From an uncultured Bacillota bacterium (lineage in GTDB: Bacteria > Bacillota > Clostridia > Christensenellales > UBA1242): a stretch of DNA of 64,000 nt. Location of the stretch: positions 139,485 to 203,484 of the forward strand of contig CASFBF010000010.1 of assembly GCA_949292985.1 (NCBI GenBank), written 5' to 3'. The translations under genes and the position numbers were made by a program. The notes beneath the pieces are model-generated. The model saw nothing but the letters and a program-made list of their open reading frames with translations. It was not told where the DNA came from and made no database searches. Positions 7,383 to 19,955 of the stretch are shown here, piece after piece; positions within the stretch are counted from its first letter, which is position 1; every line of letters begins with the position of its first letter.

Positions 7383-7943
7383 TTGGAAAAAGAAGATTTT
7401 ATTACAAAAAAAGATGCTTTTGAAGGCTTTACAAATCTTAGAGAAGTTCTTAATGACTGTTTGGAAAATCCAAGAAAATATTCAAAATCTTTTTTAGATA
7501 TGTTCACTGATGTAGGCACGTTAGCAATGGATGGCAATGCTATTGCGCAGGATTTAATGGGTTATTATTATAAAGAGGGGGTAAAAAATTATATCCCTGA
7601 AAATTATGACCTTTATATGCAATGGGAAATACTATCTGCTGCAAATGGAAATGAATACGCAATTCAAAAACTCCAATTTTTTTTAAACTATGCTTTCAGT
7701 GAAATCATCAACAGCGACAAACTACCGTTAATCCTTTCAAAAAACGGAATAGACGAAACAAATTACGTCTATGTGCTAGGAAATTTGCTGTGTGAAGGAA
7801 TAGTTGACGAAATGCAAATTACTGCTAAAAAACTTGTAGAAATGCAAGGTCAAACAAGTAAATATACTCCTGAAAAATTACGAGAATATAAAAGGGCTTT
7901 AGAAAAAGCCCTACCAAAAGTTTTAAGTTTTCTGCTTTCATAA
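7383..7943 (+). CDS. Hypothetical protein, helical, possibly SEL1/TPR-like
   Basis: This 186-residue soluble protein of unknown function has no recognised catalytic motif. The segment MDGNAIAQDLMGYYYKEGVKNY (split here as MDGNAIAQDLMGYY and KEGVKNY), followed later by AANGNEYAIQKLQ, resembles SEL1-type helical repeats (A-x-x-x-L-x-x-x-Y-x-x-G). The start is TTG at 7383, 9 bases after AAGGAG. The TTG at 7362 would lie upstream of that ribosome site. A TATAAT box at 7353-7358 supports a separate promoter from the DUF975 gene. A symmetrical terminator follows. Confidence 0.6.
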   Translation: MEKEDFITKKDAFEGFTNLREVLNDCLENPRKYSKSFLDMFTDVGTLAMDGNAIAQDLMGYYYKEGVKNYIPENYDLYMQWEILSAANGNEYAIQKLQFFLNYAFSEIINSDKLPLILSKNGIDETNYVYVLGNLLCEGIVDEMQITAKKLVEMQGQTSKYTPEKLREYKRALEKALPKVLSFLLS

Positions 7944-8521: not shown

Positions 8522-10510
8522 TTAAAAGAAACTCGGTCTGCCCAAGATCACCTGATTTCTTTTATCAATATCGTAAAACACTTGCGTTTCATCTAAATAT
8601 TTACTTGTCTTAGGAAGCACAAGTGGTGGATATTGTGTCATTTGTGATGTAGTATGGAACTGCGCCAACTTACATCTTATAGGATTATACCTAAATACTT
8701 TAATTATAGCCTCACCAAAAGGCAAACGACTTAATTCATATGGATCAATTAAAGGCACAACATTTTTCTGAGTTTGAGTGGAAGTTGATTTTGATGAAGA
8801 ATCCTTACCTTCATTCTTTGTAACTTGTTCTTCCTTGCTAATTAACTGAACATTGCCACAACTCTTTGAAAAAGCTTCTCTTGTTGCTGTATCTTCCGAA
8901 CCTAAGAAAATTTGAATGTTAAAGTTGCCCTTAATTGTTTCTGCTGTATCTTTCCCATATTTTGTATCCAACTGAGTAAAAGATTGAACAACAATTTCAA
9001 AAAATATATTTCTTGAACGAGAAACCGTAACCATTGTTGCAAAGTCCTGAATAACAGGCAAATTACCAAACTCATCTAGCAGAAAATAAACATGTCGTGG
9101 AAGTTTTTGCCTAGGATATTTATTTGCCACATCAACAAGAGTTCTATATAACTGTGAAATGCAAATCGTCGCAAGCGGATGTCTTTCTTTTTTATGGTCA
9201 GGAATTTTAATAAAGAAAGCAGTAGGTTTTTCAACAAATTTATTGAAATCTATATCAGTCCCGCTTGTAGCATAACAAATTCCCATATCTTCCATAAGTT
9301 TTGAAATTTTGCCAGCCAACACACTGAGATATGATTTTGTGGTTGAAACAGCACTATCAATAACAGGCGAAGTTAAACCTGTAACTGTTGAAGTTTTACT
9401 TCTTCCTGCACAAAATCTTCTTATAGAATTAAAAGGATTATCTGGGTCATTATCACGCTTATTCGCAATTTTATAAAGGTTATAAAAATTAAATTGATCT
9501 TTTCTCAGTTTATTTTCGCCAAGTCTTGGATCAACAGAATCTTCCAGCATGGCAACCATAACCCCATAAAGAAAATCTTGTGCTCCCTGTTCCCAAATTG
9601 TATCGTTACTGTTTTGTGAAACTGGGCATACAGCCGCGGCTATACCTCTTAAATCAAACATAGCCTCATTAACCATTCTTTGTTTTGCTGCGGTTATTTC
9701 TCTATTAAGTTCCTCTTCGTTAGGATAGGCAACGCCATTGAACTCAAACCAACTGTCGCCATATTCAACGCCATATAAAGATTCTTTGCCTGCTTGGGCT
9801 GGTGTGCAACCCGAATATTTTTTTGCCTCTTTTGCCAAATTTAACGCTTTATTATAAATCAAAAAGGCCCTTTCCATCGGATTCCATCTTGAAGATGAGT
9901 ATGGATCATCAAGGTCGTAGATTTGAACATCATAACCTTCTTCAATAAGTGCTCTTGCATGCTTAGCATACAATTCACCTTTTGGGTCTGCCAGCACTAA
10001 CGATGGCTTTTCGGCAGTATGAGCAAAAATTCTAACTGCCGGATCAATGAGCATAGTAGTTTTACCTGTTCCCGTTGTACCTATAACCAAAGCGTGCATT
10101 TCATCTTTCATGGTTACCTCATATTTAGAGCCAACCTTTTCATTTCTTAAAATCATTCCTGTGTTTTTAAGAGCAGGCAAACTATTCCAAGTTTGGTTAA
10201 TTAAAAACTTATCAGCAAGAATTTGTTCATGGGACATAAAACCTGAATCGTAATGTAACGCAAACTCTTGCCCAGAAGCAGTTTTACCTGTTTTAGCAGC
10301 ATCTGGAATGGATTTTTTAGGTCTAAAATAAATACCAAGGCAAAATCCTGCAATAGCACCAACGCCAAGCCCTATCCATGCATATCTATCTACAAGCAAA
10401 CTTATATCCCATGCCGTTGTCTGTGAGTATGCAATGCCCACACCTACACCATATCCTATTACCAAACAGATTATTGTCCAAATAATTACAATTTTTATAG
10501 TTTTTTTCAT
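8522..10510 (-). CDS. VirD4/TraG-like type IV coupling protein
   Basis: This 662-residue P-loop ATPase of the VirD4/TraG family couples DNA or protein substrates to a type IV secretion channel. Two N-terminal membrane helices (about 5-27 and 40-60) are followed by Walker A GTTGTGKTT (about 145), the segment LADPKGELY and Walker B VYFLLDEFGNLP, all diagnostic. The ATG at 10510 follows GAGGGG; the ORF extends upstream to an ATG at 10540, but that lacks a site. It resembles the coupling proteins of Firmicute integrative conjugative elements. No relaxase, VirB4 or VirB6 gene accompanies it, and its flanks look chromosomal. It is therefore either an orphan or part of a system dispersed through the genome; pilin-like genes lie at 19-20 kb. 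Confidence 0.92.
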   Translation of the reverse strand: MKKTIKIVIIWTIICLVIGYGVGVGIAYSQTTAWDISLLVDRYAWIGLGVGAIAGFCLGIYFRPKKSIPDAAKTGKTASGQEFALHYDSGFMSHEQILADKFLINQTWNSLPALKNTGMILRNEKVGSKYEVTMKDEMHALVIGTTGTGKTTMLIDPAVRIFAHTAEKPSLVLADPKGELYAKHARALIEEGYDVQIYDLDDPYSSSRWNPMERAFLIYNKALNLAKEAKKYSGCTPAQAGKESLYGVEYGDSWFEFNGVAYPNEEELNREITAAKQRMVNEAMFDLRGIAAAVCPVSQNSNDTIWEQGAQDFLYGVMVAMLEDSVDPRLGENKLRKDQFNFYNLYKIANKRDNDPDNPFNSIRRFCAGRSKTSTVTGLTSPVIDSAVSTTKSYLSVLAGKISKLMEDMGICYATSGTDIDFNKFVEKPTAFFIKIPDHKKERHPLATICISQLYRTLVDVANKYPRQKLPRHVYFLLDEFGNLPVIQDFATMVTVSRSRNIFFEIVVQSFTQLDTKYGKDTAETIKGNFNIQIFLGSEDTATREAFSKSCGNVQLISKEEQVTKNEGKDSSSKSTSTQTQKNVVPLIDPYELSRLPFGEAIIKVFRYNPIRCKLAQFHTTSQMTQYPPLVLPKTSKYLDETQVFYDIDKRNQVILGRPSFF

Positions 10511-12719: not shown

Positions 12720-12819
12720 CTTATCTCCCAAGAAAACTATTTCAGTTTAACGCATACATAACTTTTTTCAAAATAGTTTTATATGTATATTTTGTCGAAT
12801 TTTTTATTTATTAAGGTGC

Positions 12820-12854
12820 TTGCGAAATATTAAAAAAACTGCTACAATAAATAT
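12820..12854 (+). promoter_or_regulatory. Promoter giving a leaderless mRNA (engB)
   Basis: TTGCGA (12820-12825), spacer 17, TACAAT (12843-12848), then exactly 6 bases to the ATG at 12855. No Shine-Dalgarno site is present. Confidence 0.72.
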
Positions 12855-13436
12855 ATGTTAATTAAACAAGCAGTATACTTAACAAGTGTTGTTGACAAAA
12901 AAAATCTCATCGATGATGAGAAGCCTGAATTCGCCTTTGTTGGCAGAAGCAATGTCGGTAAAAGCAGTATTATAAATAATTTAACAGGCAAAAAAAATTT
13001 GGCTAAAACATCTTCCACTCCTGGGCACACAAGAATGATAAATTATTTTAATATTAATAATGGTGAGTTTAGGTTTGTAGATTTGCCAGGATATGGCTTT
13101 CACAAGGCAGGCAAAAAAAATCAAAACATGTGGGCAGATTTAATAGAAGATTATCTATTAAACAGTGAATGTTTAAAAACTGTTTTTATGCTGGTTGATA
13201 GCAAAATAGTTCCCACCCAACTTGACCAAGTTATGTGTAAATTTTTATTAGAAACTGGCAGAAATTTTATGGTTATAGCCACAAAAGCAGATAAATTATC
13301 AAAAGCCAAACAACAACAGGCAAAAAAACAAATTGCATCAACGCTTGGAATTAGAGAAGACATTATCGTTTTCCACAGCAGTGAAAATTCACAAGGAAAA
13401 GAACAAATTTTAAACTATATTGAAAATTTAATTTAA
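12855..13436 (+). CDS. engB: Ribosome biogenesis GTPase EngB/YsxC
   Basis: EngB (YsxC/YihA) is an essential small GTPase for assembly of the large ribosomal subunit. The 193-residue protein shows G1 GRSNVGKSS (about 31-39), G2 TPGHT, G3 DLPGYG, G4 TKAD and G5-like HSSE. The length is typical. The ATG directly follows a promoter with a 6-base gap, so the mRNA is expected to be leaderless. The next gene has its own -10 box overlapping the end of this region. Confidence 0.96.
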   Translation: MLIKQAVYLTSVVDKKNLIDDEKPEFAFVGRSNVGKSSIINNLTGKKNLAKTSSTPGHTRMINYFNINNGEFRFVDLPGYGFHKAGKKNQNMWADLIEDYLLNSECLKTVFMLVDSKIVPTQLDQVMCKFLLETGRNFMVIATKADKLSKAKQQQAKKQIASTLGIREDIIVFHSSENSQGKEQILNYIENLI

Positions 13437-15065: not shown

Positions 15066-15653
15066 ATGGTAGATTTTTCACAAAGCGTAACAAAAGAAAA
15101 TTTAGCCAGAGCATTTGCCGCAGAATGCCAAGACGGAGCAAGATATCAATTTATGGCGAAAGATGCCAAGCAAAATCAAATGAATTATGTTTCTACAATA
15201 TTAAAAATGTTAGCAAAAAATGAGATGGCTCACGCAAAAATGTTTTATCAACATATAATTGACAATTTACAAAGTAAAAATGGGAACATAAATATTGAAG
15301 CAGGATTTCCTTTTAAAGAATCCGAACTAAAATCTTCTCTGAAAGAAGCTTCTCAAATTGAAGAATATGAAAGCGAAAACATTTACCCCGCATTTGCAAA
15401 AATAGCAAAAGATGAAGGATTTAACGATATTGCACAAACTTTTCATAAAGTTGCGGAAGTTGAAAAAGTTCACAACCAAAAATTAGCAATGTTAAATGAT
15501 ATGTTTAACAAAAAAACTATTTATAAGTCTCAAACACCTAAACAATATGAATGTTCAAACTGTGGTCATAGAGAATACAAAAAAGAAGCATGGAAAACCT
15601 GCCCTCTATGTAATTATCCACAGGGATATGTAATTATAAATTTTGAAGAATAA
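15066..15653 (+). CDS. Rubrerythrin
   Basis: This 195-residue peroxide-reducing protein protects anaerobes. The N-terminal ferritin-like four-helix domain has the di-iron ligands in AAECQDGARYQFMA, KNEMAHAKMF, EEYESENIYPAFAKIAKDEG and EVEKVHNQKL. The C-terminal rubredoxin-like domain has YECSNCGH and CPLCNYP, the Fe(Cys)4 site. ATG 15066 follows GGGAGG; the GTG at 15039 lies upstream of both the ribosome site and the TATAAT box (15044-15049). A cloverleaf element begins 9 bases after the stop. Confidence 0.95.
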   Translation: MVDFSQSVTKENLARAFAAECQDGARYQFMAKDAKQNQMNYVSTILKMLAKNEMAHAKMFYQHIIDNLQSKNGNINIEAGFPFKESELKSSLKEASQIEEYESENIYPAFAKIAKDEGFNDIAQTFHKVAEVEKVHNQKLAMLNDMFNKKTIYKSQTPKQYECSNCGHREYKKEAWKTCPLCNYPQGYVIINFEE

Positions 15654-15662
15654 TTTACATGG

Positions 15663-15735
15663 GGCTTGACGCCTCGGCTTCGCCGAGACATGCGCCTTAC
15701 GGCGCATTTCGCACTGTTGTGCGAAACGTCAAGCC
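15663..15735. repeat. Cloverleaf element 1 (four-way junction of perfect stems)
   Basis: The outer stem GGCTTGACG (15663-15671) pairs with CGTCAAGCC (15727-15735). Inside are three hairpins side by side: CTCGGC/GCCGAG (15673-15687), ATGCGCC/GGCGCAT (15690-15707) and TTCGCAC/GTGCGAA (15708-15725). Only about four bases at the junction are unpaired. It is GC-rich in an AT-rich background. The shape is the same as the element at 18722-18798, but the sequence is unrelated. Confidence 0.9.
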
Positions 15736-15747
15736 ACTTCGTTGAAT

Positions 15748-15781
15748 AAAAAAACCTCTTCAAACAGAAGAGGTTTTTTTT
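15748..15781. terminator. Bidirectional terminator between rubrerythrin and HU genes
   Basis: AACCTCTTC and GAAGAGGTT pair around ~5 bases, with A-run and T-run flanks; it serves both convergent genes. Confidence 0.88.
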
Positions 15782-15782
15782 C

Positions 15783-16055
15783 TTAGTTAAAAATATCTTT
15801 AAAACTATTTCCAAATTTGAAAGCAGGCGCATTTGAAGCCTTGATTTGAACCTTTTGTTTAGTCATAGGATTGATTCCTACTCTTGCAGGTTTTTTCTTA
15901 ACTTCATAAGTTCCAAAACCAGCGATAGCAATTTTTTCGCCTTTTTTCAATGTGTCAACAATAGTTGCCACCATAGCCTCAAAAGCAATTCCCGCATCTT
16001 TTTGAGTGAAGTTTGCCTTTTCAGCAAATGCCTTAATAAATTCAGATTTGTTCAT
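15783..16055 (-). CDS. hup: HU-family DNA-binding protein
   Basis: This 90-residue histone-like protein bends and compacts DNA as a dimer. It starts MNKSEFIKAFAEKANFTQKD and contains the beta-arm signature GFGTYEVKKKPARVGINPMT, followed by PAFKFGNSFK. The ATG at 16055 has GGGAG upstream and matches the family start; the longer ORF from 16085 adds 10 atypical residues. A promoter is visible at 16100-16127. Confidence 0.97.
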   Translation of the reverse strand: MNKSEFIKAFAEKANFTQKDAGIAFEAMVATIVDTLKKGEKIAIAGFGTYEVKKKPARVGINPMTKQKVQIKASNAPAFKFGNSFKDIFN

Positions 16056-17572: not shown

Positions 17573-17991
17573 TTATTTTTCCTCATTATAGAAATCATTT
17601 CTTGTAAAACTGGATTTTTTAGTTCATACTCTTTAAAGTTTGCGCCCTCCTCTTTCAAAAAAGTAATCAAAGAAAAAATCTTTTTATTTTGCACAACTGC
17701 CTGTGCAATTAAAATTCCATCACTACTTTCTATTATATAAATGGGATAACTGATTTCTCCCATTTTTATGTTAAACTTTTTTTTCAACTTTAAATTGTTT
17801 GTAACTTTTTCATAGTCTTTAATCATTAAATCTATTGCTGTGAATCCAATAAACTGTTGTGTGCCAAATAAAGAAATAACATTTCCTGTTGGGGTGATAA
17901 TGTTATCAATAAAATCCAGACCTTGATCATTTTTTAACGTATATTTTTCTTTTGAAAGTTTAAAACCCTCTGGTAAGATTAAATTTTCCAT
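17569..17991 (-). CDS. Hypothetical protein of 140 residues, first gene of the queH-lepB unit
   Basis: This soluble alpha/beta protein begins MENLILPEGFKLSKEKYTL and ends NPVLQEMISIMRKNK. The layout (strands around an acidic IIESSDGILIAQAVV, then a C-terminal helix) loosely recalls PsbP/DcrB-like folds, but I do not recognise it. It overlaps queH by 4 bases (ATGA), so the two are co-translated. Confidence 0.6.
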   Translation of the reverse strand: MENLILPEGFKLSKEKYTLKNDQGLDFIDNIITPTGNVISLFGTQQFIGFTAIDLMIKDYEKVTNNLKLKKKFNIKMGEISYPIYIIESSDGILIAQAVVQNKKIFSLITFLKEEGANFKEYELKNPVLQEMISIMRKNK

Positions 17992-18513: not shown

Positions 18514-18696
18514 ATGAATCAGCAAGATATTTTATTGGTGCTTCTACTTTCTATTTTTGCCAATTCCAATGACATAAATTTAAACACAAACACCAATTTC
18601 CTACTGCTTTTATTGCTTGCACTTTCAAACAATAATGGTTATTGGGGCGGTTGCGCTAACACCTGCTCTGGAACTTGCTCTGGCCGAATTTTCTAA
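18514..18696 (+). CDS. Small Leu-rich, Cys-tailed protein (60 residues)
   Basis: It begins MNQQDILLVLLLSIFANSND, has a second Leu run (NFLLLLLLALSNNN) and ends GYWGGCANTCSGTCSGRIF with Cys in a C-x3-C-x3-C pattern. Two short hydrophobic stretches are separated by a Asn/Thr-rich linker. AAGGAGG lies 5 bases before the ATG, a near-perfect ribosome site, so it is probably well expressed. I do not recognise a family; a secreted or modified peptide precursor, or a spore or envelope peptide, are possibilities only. Cloverleaf element 2 with a T-run follows directly. Confidence 0.65.
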   Translation: MNQQDILLVLLLSIFANSNDINLNTNTNFLLLLLLALSNNNGYWGGCANTCSGTCSGRIF

Positions 18697-18721: not shown

Positions 18722-18804
18722 GCGCGCAAGTTTTGCCACCAAAGTGGCAAACGCCTTGTTTGAAACAAGGCGGTGCTTTTCAAGCACCACTTGCGCGCTT
18801 TTTT
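18722..18804 (+). repeat. Cloverleaf element 2 (four-way junction) with terminal T-run
   Basis: The outer stem GCGCGCAAGT (18722-18731) pairs with ACTTGCGCGC (18789-18798). Packed inside with almost no unpaired base are TTTGCCAC/GTGGCAAA (18732-18751), CGCCTTGTT/AACAAGGCG (18752-18772) and GTGCTT/AAGCAC (18773-18787). T6 follows, so it may also end the upstream transcript. Confidence 0.9.
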
Positions 18805-19064: not shown

Positions 19065-19418
19065 ATGTTTAATTTCATTTCACAGTTAGGTTATGACTGG
19101 CATGGAACTTTTGATGGAACTACTTTCGAATGGGTTGCAAGCCTTTTTGATTATTTAGGACCTATCCTTTACGCAATCATGGCTGTTGTTGGTGCTGCTG
19201 GTGCAGTGTATGCCATTGTTTTAGGTGTAAACTTAGCAAGAGCGGAAGACCAATCAAAACGTGATGAAGCAAAAAAGCGTTTAATAACCACATTGATTGC
19301 AATTGCAATTACAGTTGCGCTTGTTATCTTCTTCAACGAATTGTTCCCAATGATTTTAAACGCATTCAAACCAGATGACTTGAACATAGATACAGGAAAA
19401 TCATTAATTCATATTTAA
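19065..19418 (+). CDS. Pilin-like two-helix membrane protein (VirB2-like), copy 1
   Basis: This 117-residue protein has an N-terminal WHGTFDGTTFEWVASLFDYL, a first helix GPILYAIMAVVGAAGAVYAIV, a basic cytoplasmic loop ARAEDQSKRDEAKKRL and a second helix TLIAIAITVALVIFFNEL. The layout fits VirB2/TrbC-type pilins of Gram-positive type IV secretion. The paralogue at 19581-19955 is nearly identical from the first helix through the loop and differs at both ends. The start is ATG 19065 behind GGAGG. It ends in a good terminator. The ends probably determine function, and the constant middle packs in the filament. Confidence 0.7.
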   Translation: MFNFISQLGYDWHGTFDGTTFEWVASLFDYLGPILYAIMAVVGAAGAVYAIVLGVNLARAEDQSKRDEAKKRLITTLIAIAITVALVIFFNELFPMILNAFKPDDLNIDTGKSLIHI

Positions 19419-19528: not shown

Positions 19529-19591
19529 TATTTAAATAAATTATTAAAAAACTTTAATTTTTTATTAGTTTTTTAATAATTTATTTAAATA
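19529..19591. repeat. 25-bp perfect AT-only-like hairpin at the end of pilin-like copy 2
   Basis: Bases 19529-19553 and 19567-19591 are exact inverted copies (25 bp) around 13 bases. The right arm contains the last codons and the stop of the minus-strand gene. It may act as a terminator or RNA 3' shield; such a long perfect match is unusual here. Confidence 0.85.
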
Positions 19592-19955
19592 CAGAAATTA
19601 AAGTTAAAGCAATATCCCCTGTTGTTTTAAAGTCTTCTTCTTTTATGAAAGCACCAAGAATCAATGGTAAAAGTTCGTTAAAGAAAATTACCAATCCTAT
19701 AACTACTGCTACTGCAACTATCGTTGTGATTAAACGTTTTTTTGCTTCATCACGCTTTGATTGGTCTTCTGCTCTTGCTAAGTTTACACCCAAAACAATA
19801 GCATATACTAATCCAGCGGCGCCAACAACAGCCATGATTGCGTAAAGAATAGGATACAATGCGTTGAATAAATTTTTCACCCATGCTAATTCGCCGCCCG
19901 GGAATTTGTCAGCCAAATCATTCCAAGCATTTCCCAATAAAGATAAGAAATTCAT
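19581..19955 (-). CDS. Pilin-like two-helix membrane protein (VirB2-like), copy 2
   Basis: This 124-residue paralogue of the gene at 19065 lies in inverted, convergent orientation. The shared core is YPILYAIMAVVGAAGLVYAI, then VLGVNLARAEDQSKRDEAKK and RLITT. The N-terminus (NFLSLLGNAWNDLADKFPGG) and C-terminus (FIKEEDFKTTGDIALTLISV) differ. The 70-base leader including the ATG is identical to copy 1. As a type IV pilin-like subunit it would sit in the cytoplasmic membrane; a link to the VirD4-like protein at 8.5 kb is inferred. The 3' end lies in a 25-bp hairpin. Confidence 0.7.
   Translation of the reverse strand: MNFLSLLGNAWNDLADKFPGGELAWVKNLFNALYPILYAIMAVVGAAGLVYAIVLGVNLARAEDQSKRDEAKKRLITTIVAVAVVIGLVIFFNELLPLILGAFIKEEDFKTTGDIALTLISVFK

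Follow-up and report, generated by a model that had tools for sequence, protein, structure and literature searches.

A class of cloverleaf-shaped palindromes exists beyond chance in a small Christensenellales MAG (897 kb, 33% GC), and its members are defined by a common frame, in which inverted repeats X and X′, about 9–17 bp long, form a closing stem around exactly three abutting perfect hairpins. Fuller forms carry a head hairpin before or after the cloverleaf and follow the formula [X-H1-H2-H3-X′-head]n-X, and the two elements lying within the window (the whole stretch of 64,000 nucleotides that was analyzed) are solitary headless copies. Taken together, these elements point to an undescribed kind of mobile or self-maintaining palindrome that is recognized by its shape and not by its sequence; within the open-access literature, we found no description of an element of such shape.

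Element 2 occupies positions 18722–18798 of the window and consists of a closing stem and three perfect hairpins (all given on the forward strand), with 33 Watson–Crick pairs, no G-U pair, and one unpaired junction base. Its 5′ closing arm X (GCGCGCAAGT, 18722–18731) pairs exclusively by Watson–Crick rules with the 3′ arm X′ (ACTTGCGCGC, 18789–18798), and the space between them is filled by hairpin 1 (18732–18751; 8 bp, loop CAAA), hairpin 2 (18752–18772; 9 bp, loop TGA), and hairpin 3 (18773–18787; 6 bp, loop TTC). The fold forms on either strand, and its RNA folding energy yielded z = −8.0 relative to dinucleotide shuffles, none of 200 being as good. Directly 3′ of the closing stem lies a T-run (18799–18804, +), which forms a terminator together with the GCGCGC stem. 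In the sister species G005, the closest relative compared (tgt 93% identical), this closing stem and T-run are kept and the three hairpins are not, the interior being different. Upstream, a small ORF (18514–18696, +) ends with a stop codon 25 nt before the element; its predicted product is leucine- and asparagine-rich with a cysteine-containing tail at its end, is conserved in three close relatives, and is 97% identical to the G005 peptide.

Element 1 (15663–15735) has the same topology, with a 9-bp closing stem formed by GGCTTGACG (15663–15671) and CGTCAAGCC (15727–15735) and with hairpins of 6 bp (15673–15687), 6–7 bp (15691–15706), and 7–8 bp (15707–15726), all likewise on the forward strand. 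It starts 9 nt after the stop codon of a predicted rubrerythrin-like gene (15066–15653, +) and is followed by a predicted gene for an HU-like DNA-binding protein (15783–16055, −); both ORFs have orthologues in relatives. BLAST showed no similarity between the two elements. The initial annotation had described element 2 with this anatomy and position, had assigned element 1 the same topology with unrelated sequence, and had placed both within 30 bases of a stop codon; the folds, the BLAST comparison, and the measured distances agree with each of these statements. Elsewhere in the window, two convergent genes (19065–19418, +; 19581–19955, −) encode paralogous small membrane proteins, pilin/VirB2-like by appearance, and flank an AT-rich inverted repeat (19529–19591).

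A topology-only scan, blind to sequence, covered the window together with 20 additional stretches of the source genome (~460 kb). It recovered eight elements with mutually unrelated sequences, all with exactly three hairpins: those starting at 15663 and 18722 of the window, three in a single stretch (L018:10989–11073, 12803–12883, and 17822–17906), and one each at L009:13951–14045, L021:13228–13315, and L022:904–995. No such element appeared in 40 shuffles matched for local composition. The count is a lower bound because only about 460–480 kb of the 897 kb was covered. When only Watson–Crick pairs were allowed (closing stem of at least 9 bp, hairpins of at least 6 bp), the source genome yielded seven three-hairpin structures, one two-hairpin structure, and no four-hairpin structure, and 20 shuffles yielded no structure with two or more hairpins. 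The same cloverleaf scan of 57 loci (0.95 Mb) from other Clostridia and Bacilli detected none. Rfam 15 covariance models matched only tRNAs in the window, and the elements were not among these matches; their stems, at 6–12 bp, are longer than tRNA arms. For headless elements 1 and 2, the only two searched by BLAST, no sequence relatives were found elsewhere in the genome or genus; short matches to them at L201–L204 are not cloverleafs and were rejected as relatives. The initial annotation had reasoned that shape conserved without sequence identity implies structural constraint or a palindrome generator, and it had proposed a topology-only scan in which the absence of further elements beyond chance would refute this idea. 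With eight elements found beyond chance, the scan did not refute it, and the further copies, the covariation, and the recurrence across species described below lend it support.

The genes preceding the elements include those predicted, by sequence and from relatives, to be rubrerythrin, yebC, tgt, rny, and scpB, and the elements at yebC, tgt, rny, and the gene before rnhA start only 0–1 nt past the stop codon. Read in coding orientation, seven of ten elements of the source genome have a T-run of at least five after an inner hairpin, which places the predicted terminator of the gene inside the element. Most copies contain, or are followed by, a predicted terminator, to which the closing stem and the other hairpins are additions. 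In the sister species G005, tgt is served by that terminator alone (AAAGCC..GGCTTTTTTT), which forms the middle hairpin of the element in the source genome. One of the stretches (L018:15694–18644) has a cloverleaf between yebC and a putative ruvC–ruvA–ruvB cluster.

Copies have been both gained and lost between close species. Between the rubrerythrin and HU genes, the source genome reads GAATAA-[90 nt]-GAATAA-AAAAACCTC, and G005 has an empty site in which a single GAATAA abuts AAAAACCTC. By this comparison, the inserted DNA of element 1 extends over 15654–15743, between a left GAATAA direct repeat that spans the rubrerythrin stop codon (15648–15653) and a right one (15744–15749). Three outgroups have no element at this site either, and the rnhA locus is empty in G005. 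A target-site duplication is not evident at tgt or rnhA, and no consistent one was found outside the rubrerythrin–HU site. Furthermore, the Watson–Crick-perfect stems change on both sides together, and the hairpin sets vary within a constant frame. The yebC element, common to three species, shows a paired indel (one base pair added, affecting both arms) and a change from an A-T to a G-C pair in its closing stem. The scpB element, common to two species, has one compensated pair change in its closing arms with the topology intact; its interior is 58% identical, compared with 72% in the adjacent coding DNA, the hairpins being largely replaced and the frame kept. In a second clade (G017 and L093), elements occur after rny and between yebC and ruvC; these are alike, with changes in both arms, and are unlike the source-genome elements. 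The yebC–ruvC gap, just upstream of Holliday-junction genes, may be a hotspot.

Certain copies recur as dispersed repeats or stand in tandem arrays. One closing stem (ACTATGTGATG/CATCACATAGT) is found at different loci in L097 and L103, at the ends of yebC and rny, preceded by a common head with the core CTTGCTTGCAAGAGTGAG. This core is present in 56 of 112 genus genomes, exceeding 10 copies in some; head copies are often spaced 114–151 bp apart in tandem, and dispersed copies measure ~137 bp. Out of 81 distinct heads, 51 adjoin a junction of exactly three hairpins, typically 11–18 nt downstream of the head, 11 adjoin a two-hairpin junction (some of these calls being an effect of the folding window), and one adjoins a four-hairpin junction. 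Within this head-bearing family, two different three-hairpin sets occupy one frame, and the hairpin 1 pairs change on both sides in six of six cases; these do not amount to many independent events, as they mostly reflect one block exchange. At the head-bearing loci, only rRNA and tRNA reached the Rfam gathering score, and a search of viral contigs found no head. The source genome has a head with its cloverleaf at L241:5373–5490. This single unit stands at a place apparently matching an array in G005 (L067:9953–10416), where four tandem 114-bp head-core units are followed by one cloverleaf. We also observed that the yebC–ruvC intergenic position holds the head-bearing repeat in L097 and unrelated cloverleafs in G017 and L093.

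At tRNA-Val loci, the array takes the form tRNA...X-H1-H2-H3-X′-head-X..., in which X is the tRNA 3′ end (TATAACTCCCACCA), X′ is its inverted copy, and H1 is a terminator; every unit is bounded by the tRNA 3′ end. The array is present in 16 of 30 tRNA-Val loci (some with diverged heads), absent in 13, and truncated in one, giving 16 of 29 readable species, and that of the source genome lies at C3:3550 (L188, L212). X′ tracks X, such that a tRNA with CTTCCACC has the X′ GGTGGAAG (L239, L240). At tRNA-Thr(TGT) (L027:15391–15680), the 3′ half and terminator recur downstream as a direct duplication, and an inverted anticodon-arm copy lies between the duplicates. In G040, from another family of the same order, a tRNA 3′ end closes a three-hairpin junction that contains a head-like hairpin (L170:1448–1579). 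Two other loci, from two species (L064:13036–13131 and L089:5131–5227), have an inverted copy of the tRNA T-arm GCAGGTTCGA downstream of the terminator, which closes a three-hairpin structure. Since all sequences come from MAGs, assembly may have collapsed some arrays or cut them off at contig ends.

The account that we favor, and to which we assign roughly an even chance, is that these elements are DNA-level, shape-defined, non-autonomous mobile palindromes kept perfect by template-switch correction; we regard the existence, turnover, arrays, and covariation of the class as shown, and its recognition, enzyme, and extrusion as inferred. DNA that is transiently single-stranded would adopt the four-way cloverleaf, and a recombinase or nuclease acting in trans (no enzyme has been identified) would recognize this fold by its shape. 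The element would spread by inserting beside transcription terminators and the 3′ ends of tRNAs, accompanied by direct repeats that are either short or long, and template switching during replication would correct and replace arms within the palindrome. We propose that this rewriting of arms underlies the fast drift in sequence alongside lasting pairing and topology. Among the three roles suggested in the initial annotation, a mobile or palindrome-generating family is the best supported, by the empty sites and the dispersed and tandem copies; that reading did not extend to the head-bearing family, the tRNA arrays, or the T-run terminators inside the elements, all of which it had missed. Transposition of the window's own headless copies has not been shown, because no sequence relatives of them were found. 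Also counting against our account are the lack of a consistent target-site duplication beyond the rubrerythrin–HU site and the lack of heads in viral contigs, and a T-run located within a palindrome is not in itself proof that transcription ends there. An IS200-type Y1 transposase (Y1_Tnp) is encoded in 13 of 112 genus genomes, and IS200-like ORFs occur in the loci examined; it is absent from the source genome and was therefore rejected as a necessary mobilizer. An IS200-like gene near the repeat at L208 did not recur at the other five loci.

The main rival is a purely mutational origin, in which terminator hairpins and tRNA ends are sites where template switching repeatedly makes inverted copies of nearby DNA and keeps them perfect, without recognition or mobility, the cloverleaf being an attractor of this process. 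Perfect stems and compensatory changes are reported to arise by template switching (PMC8794818), and several features fit: segments of a neighboring tRNA may reappear, inverted, as closing arms (X/X′ at tRNA-Val, the T-arm in L064 and L089, the anticodon arm in L027), the resident terminator stem at tgt is the middle hairpin, and G-U pairs are nearly absent. On its own, however, such a process predicts neither exactly three hairpins nor a constant head at a fixed distance, and it makes no prediction of dispersed, sequence-related copies at unrelated loci. We consider it unlikely as the sole cause, and it could also be a component of the account that we favor. The tRNA-Val locus, available in dozens of species, makes it directly testable whether selection or template switching keeps the palindromes.

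We next weigh an RNA-level module, in which a folded 3′ UTR or tRNA trailer would serve to protect or process the transcript and would be conserved through selection on its RNA shape. The location of elements directly after stop codons and tRNAs, the covariation, and the T-run that follows element 2 speak for it, but transcription would stop before X′ in the seven of ten elements with an inner T-run, which disfavors the RNA 3′-end module that the initial annotation had listed; with terminators inside elements, transcripts carrying both the 5′ and the 3′ closing arm would be rare. G-U pairs were also rarer than in terminators, accounting for 14 of 979 pairs in 26 elements, compared with 59 of 1343 pairs in a set of 136 terminator-like hairpins from the same genome, an approximately three-fold difference (Fisher p = 3 × 10⁻⁵; RNA folding parameters) that is indicative only, because elements and terminators were defined by different procedures. 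Both strands of the elements fold equally well. The scarcity of G-U pairs, the equal folding of strands, and the internal terminators thus favor a DNA-level explanation, and we infer that the element acts as DNA rather than RNA. Moreover, an X′ opposite a tRNA 3′ end would be expected to compete with tRNA folding, and the presence of elements varies at the same gene between close species, leaving the RNA module rather improbable. That the elements are ordinary elaborate or bidirectional terminators, branched by happenstance, is very improbable despite the terminator hairpins in or beside most copies and the convergent gene pairs at some loci, given that several copies follow tandem genes, that sister species make do with simple terminators at the same genes, that a closing stem with exactly three perfect hairpins is needless for termination, and that the shape is absent from the 0.95 Mb of other Clostridia and Bacilli.

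The shape-defined mobile palindromes that we favor resemble several known systems in part. Integron attC sites are likewise sequence-variable, structure-recognized folded sites directly 3′ of ORFs and in arrays; each folds as a single imperfect hairpin that has extrahelical bases and the R″/R′ core sites RYYYAAC/GTTRRRY (PMC2727003), whereas the elements are four-way junctions of perfect stems dispersed along the chromosome. None of ten elements contained both RYYYAAC and GTTRRRY (one right-end match only), and the extrahelical bases and unpaired central spacer of attC are not found in the elements, whose stems are perfect. REP/REPIN sequences of the RAYT system are also short, intergenic, non-autonomous palindromes that are dispersed and sometimes arrayed, and a conserved sequence and a Y1 (RAYT) transposase define the family (PMC3116915, PMC3733652). 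In contrast, the headless copies of the source genome share no sequence, there is no Y1_Tnp in that genome, and the fold is a three-hairpin junction; a conserved repeat sequence was met only in the head-bearing family. Mitochondrial hairpin elements, such as the sponge RHE, are repetitive intergenic hairpins that invade compact genomes, but they are organellar, and the available part of that source describes no fixed four-arm frame with freely changing sequence (PMC2800124). MITEs are similarly small, lack ORFs, insert near genes, and have terminal inverted repeats, a trait present here as the closing stem X/X′ of every copy; the elements differ in having no target-site duplication that is consistent beyond the GAATAA repeat of the rubrerythrin–HU site, an interior of three perfect hairpins, and members that are unrelated in sequence from one locus to another. 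Finally, tyrosine-recombinase elements at tRNA 3′ ends resemble the arrays in that the insert is bordered on either side by the tRNA 3′ end as a direct repeat, but the array units are geneless, span only 114–151 bp, and hold within them the tRNA end in inverted orientation.

More tentatively, and in our view possible but unlikely, the elements would represent a new mobile or diversity-generating DNA system, with a constant X/X′/head frame, three hairpin cassettes that are exchanged or rewritten, and recognition by fold alone, which seeds after tRNAs and terminators and amplifies into arrays. Sequence similarity is the basis on which repeat families are detected and named. Cloverleaf elements would escape such searches, yet in this streamlined genome they form a recurrent, fast-turnover part. 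Should inheritance and recognition indeed rest on shape alone, mobile DNA would have a distinct mode of heredity, and the elements would offer a natural laboratory for the origin, persistence, and change of perfect multi-arm palindromes. Separately, in another Clostridia MAG, we observed very long perfect inverted repeats of a GTGTCCATTTCGGGAC unit (L161:2255–2365, 7831–7898, and 9854–9945); these long inverted repeats, as well as single hairpins, were judged unrelated to the cloverleafs.
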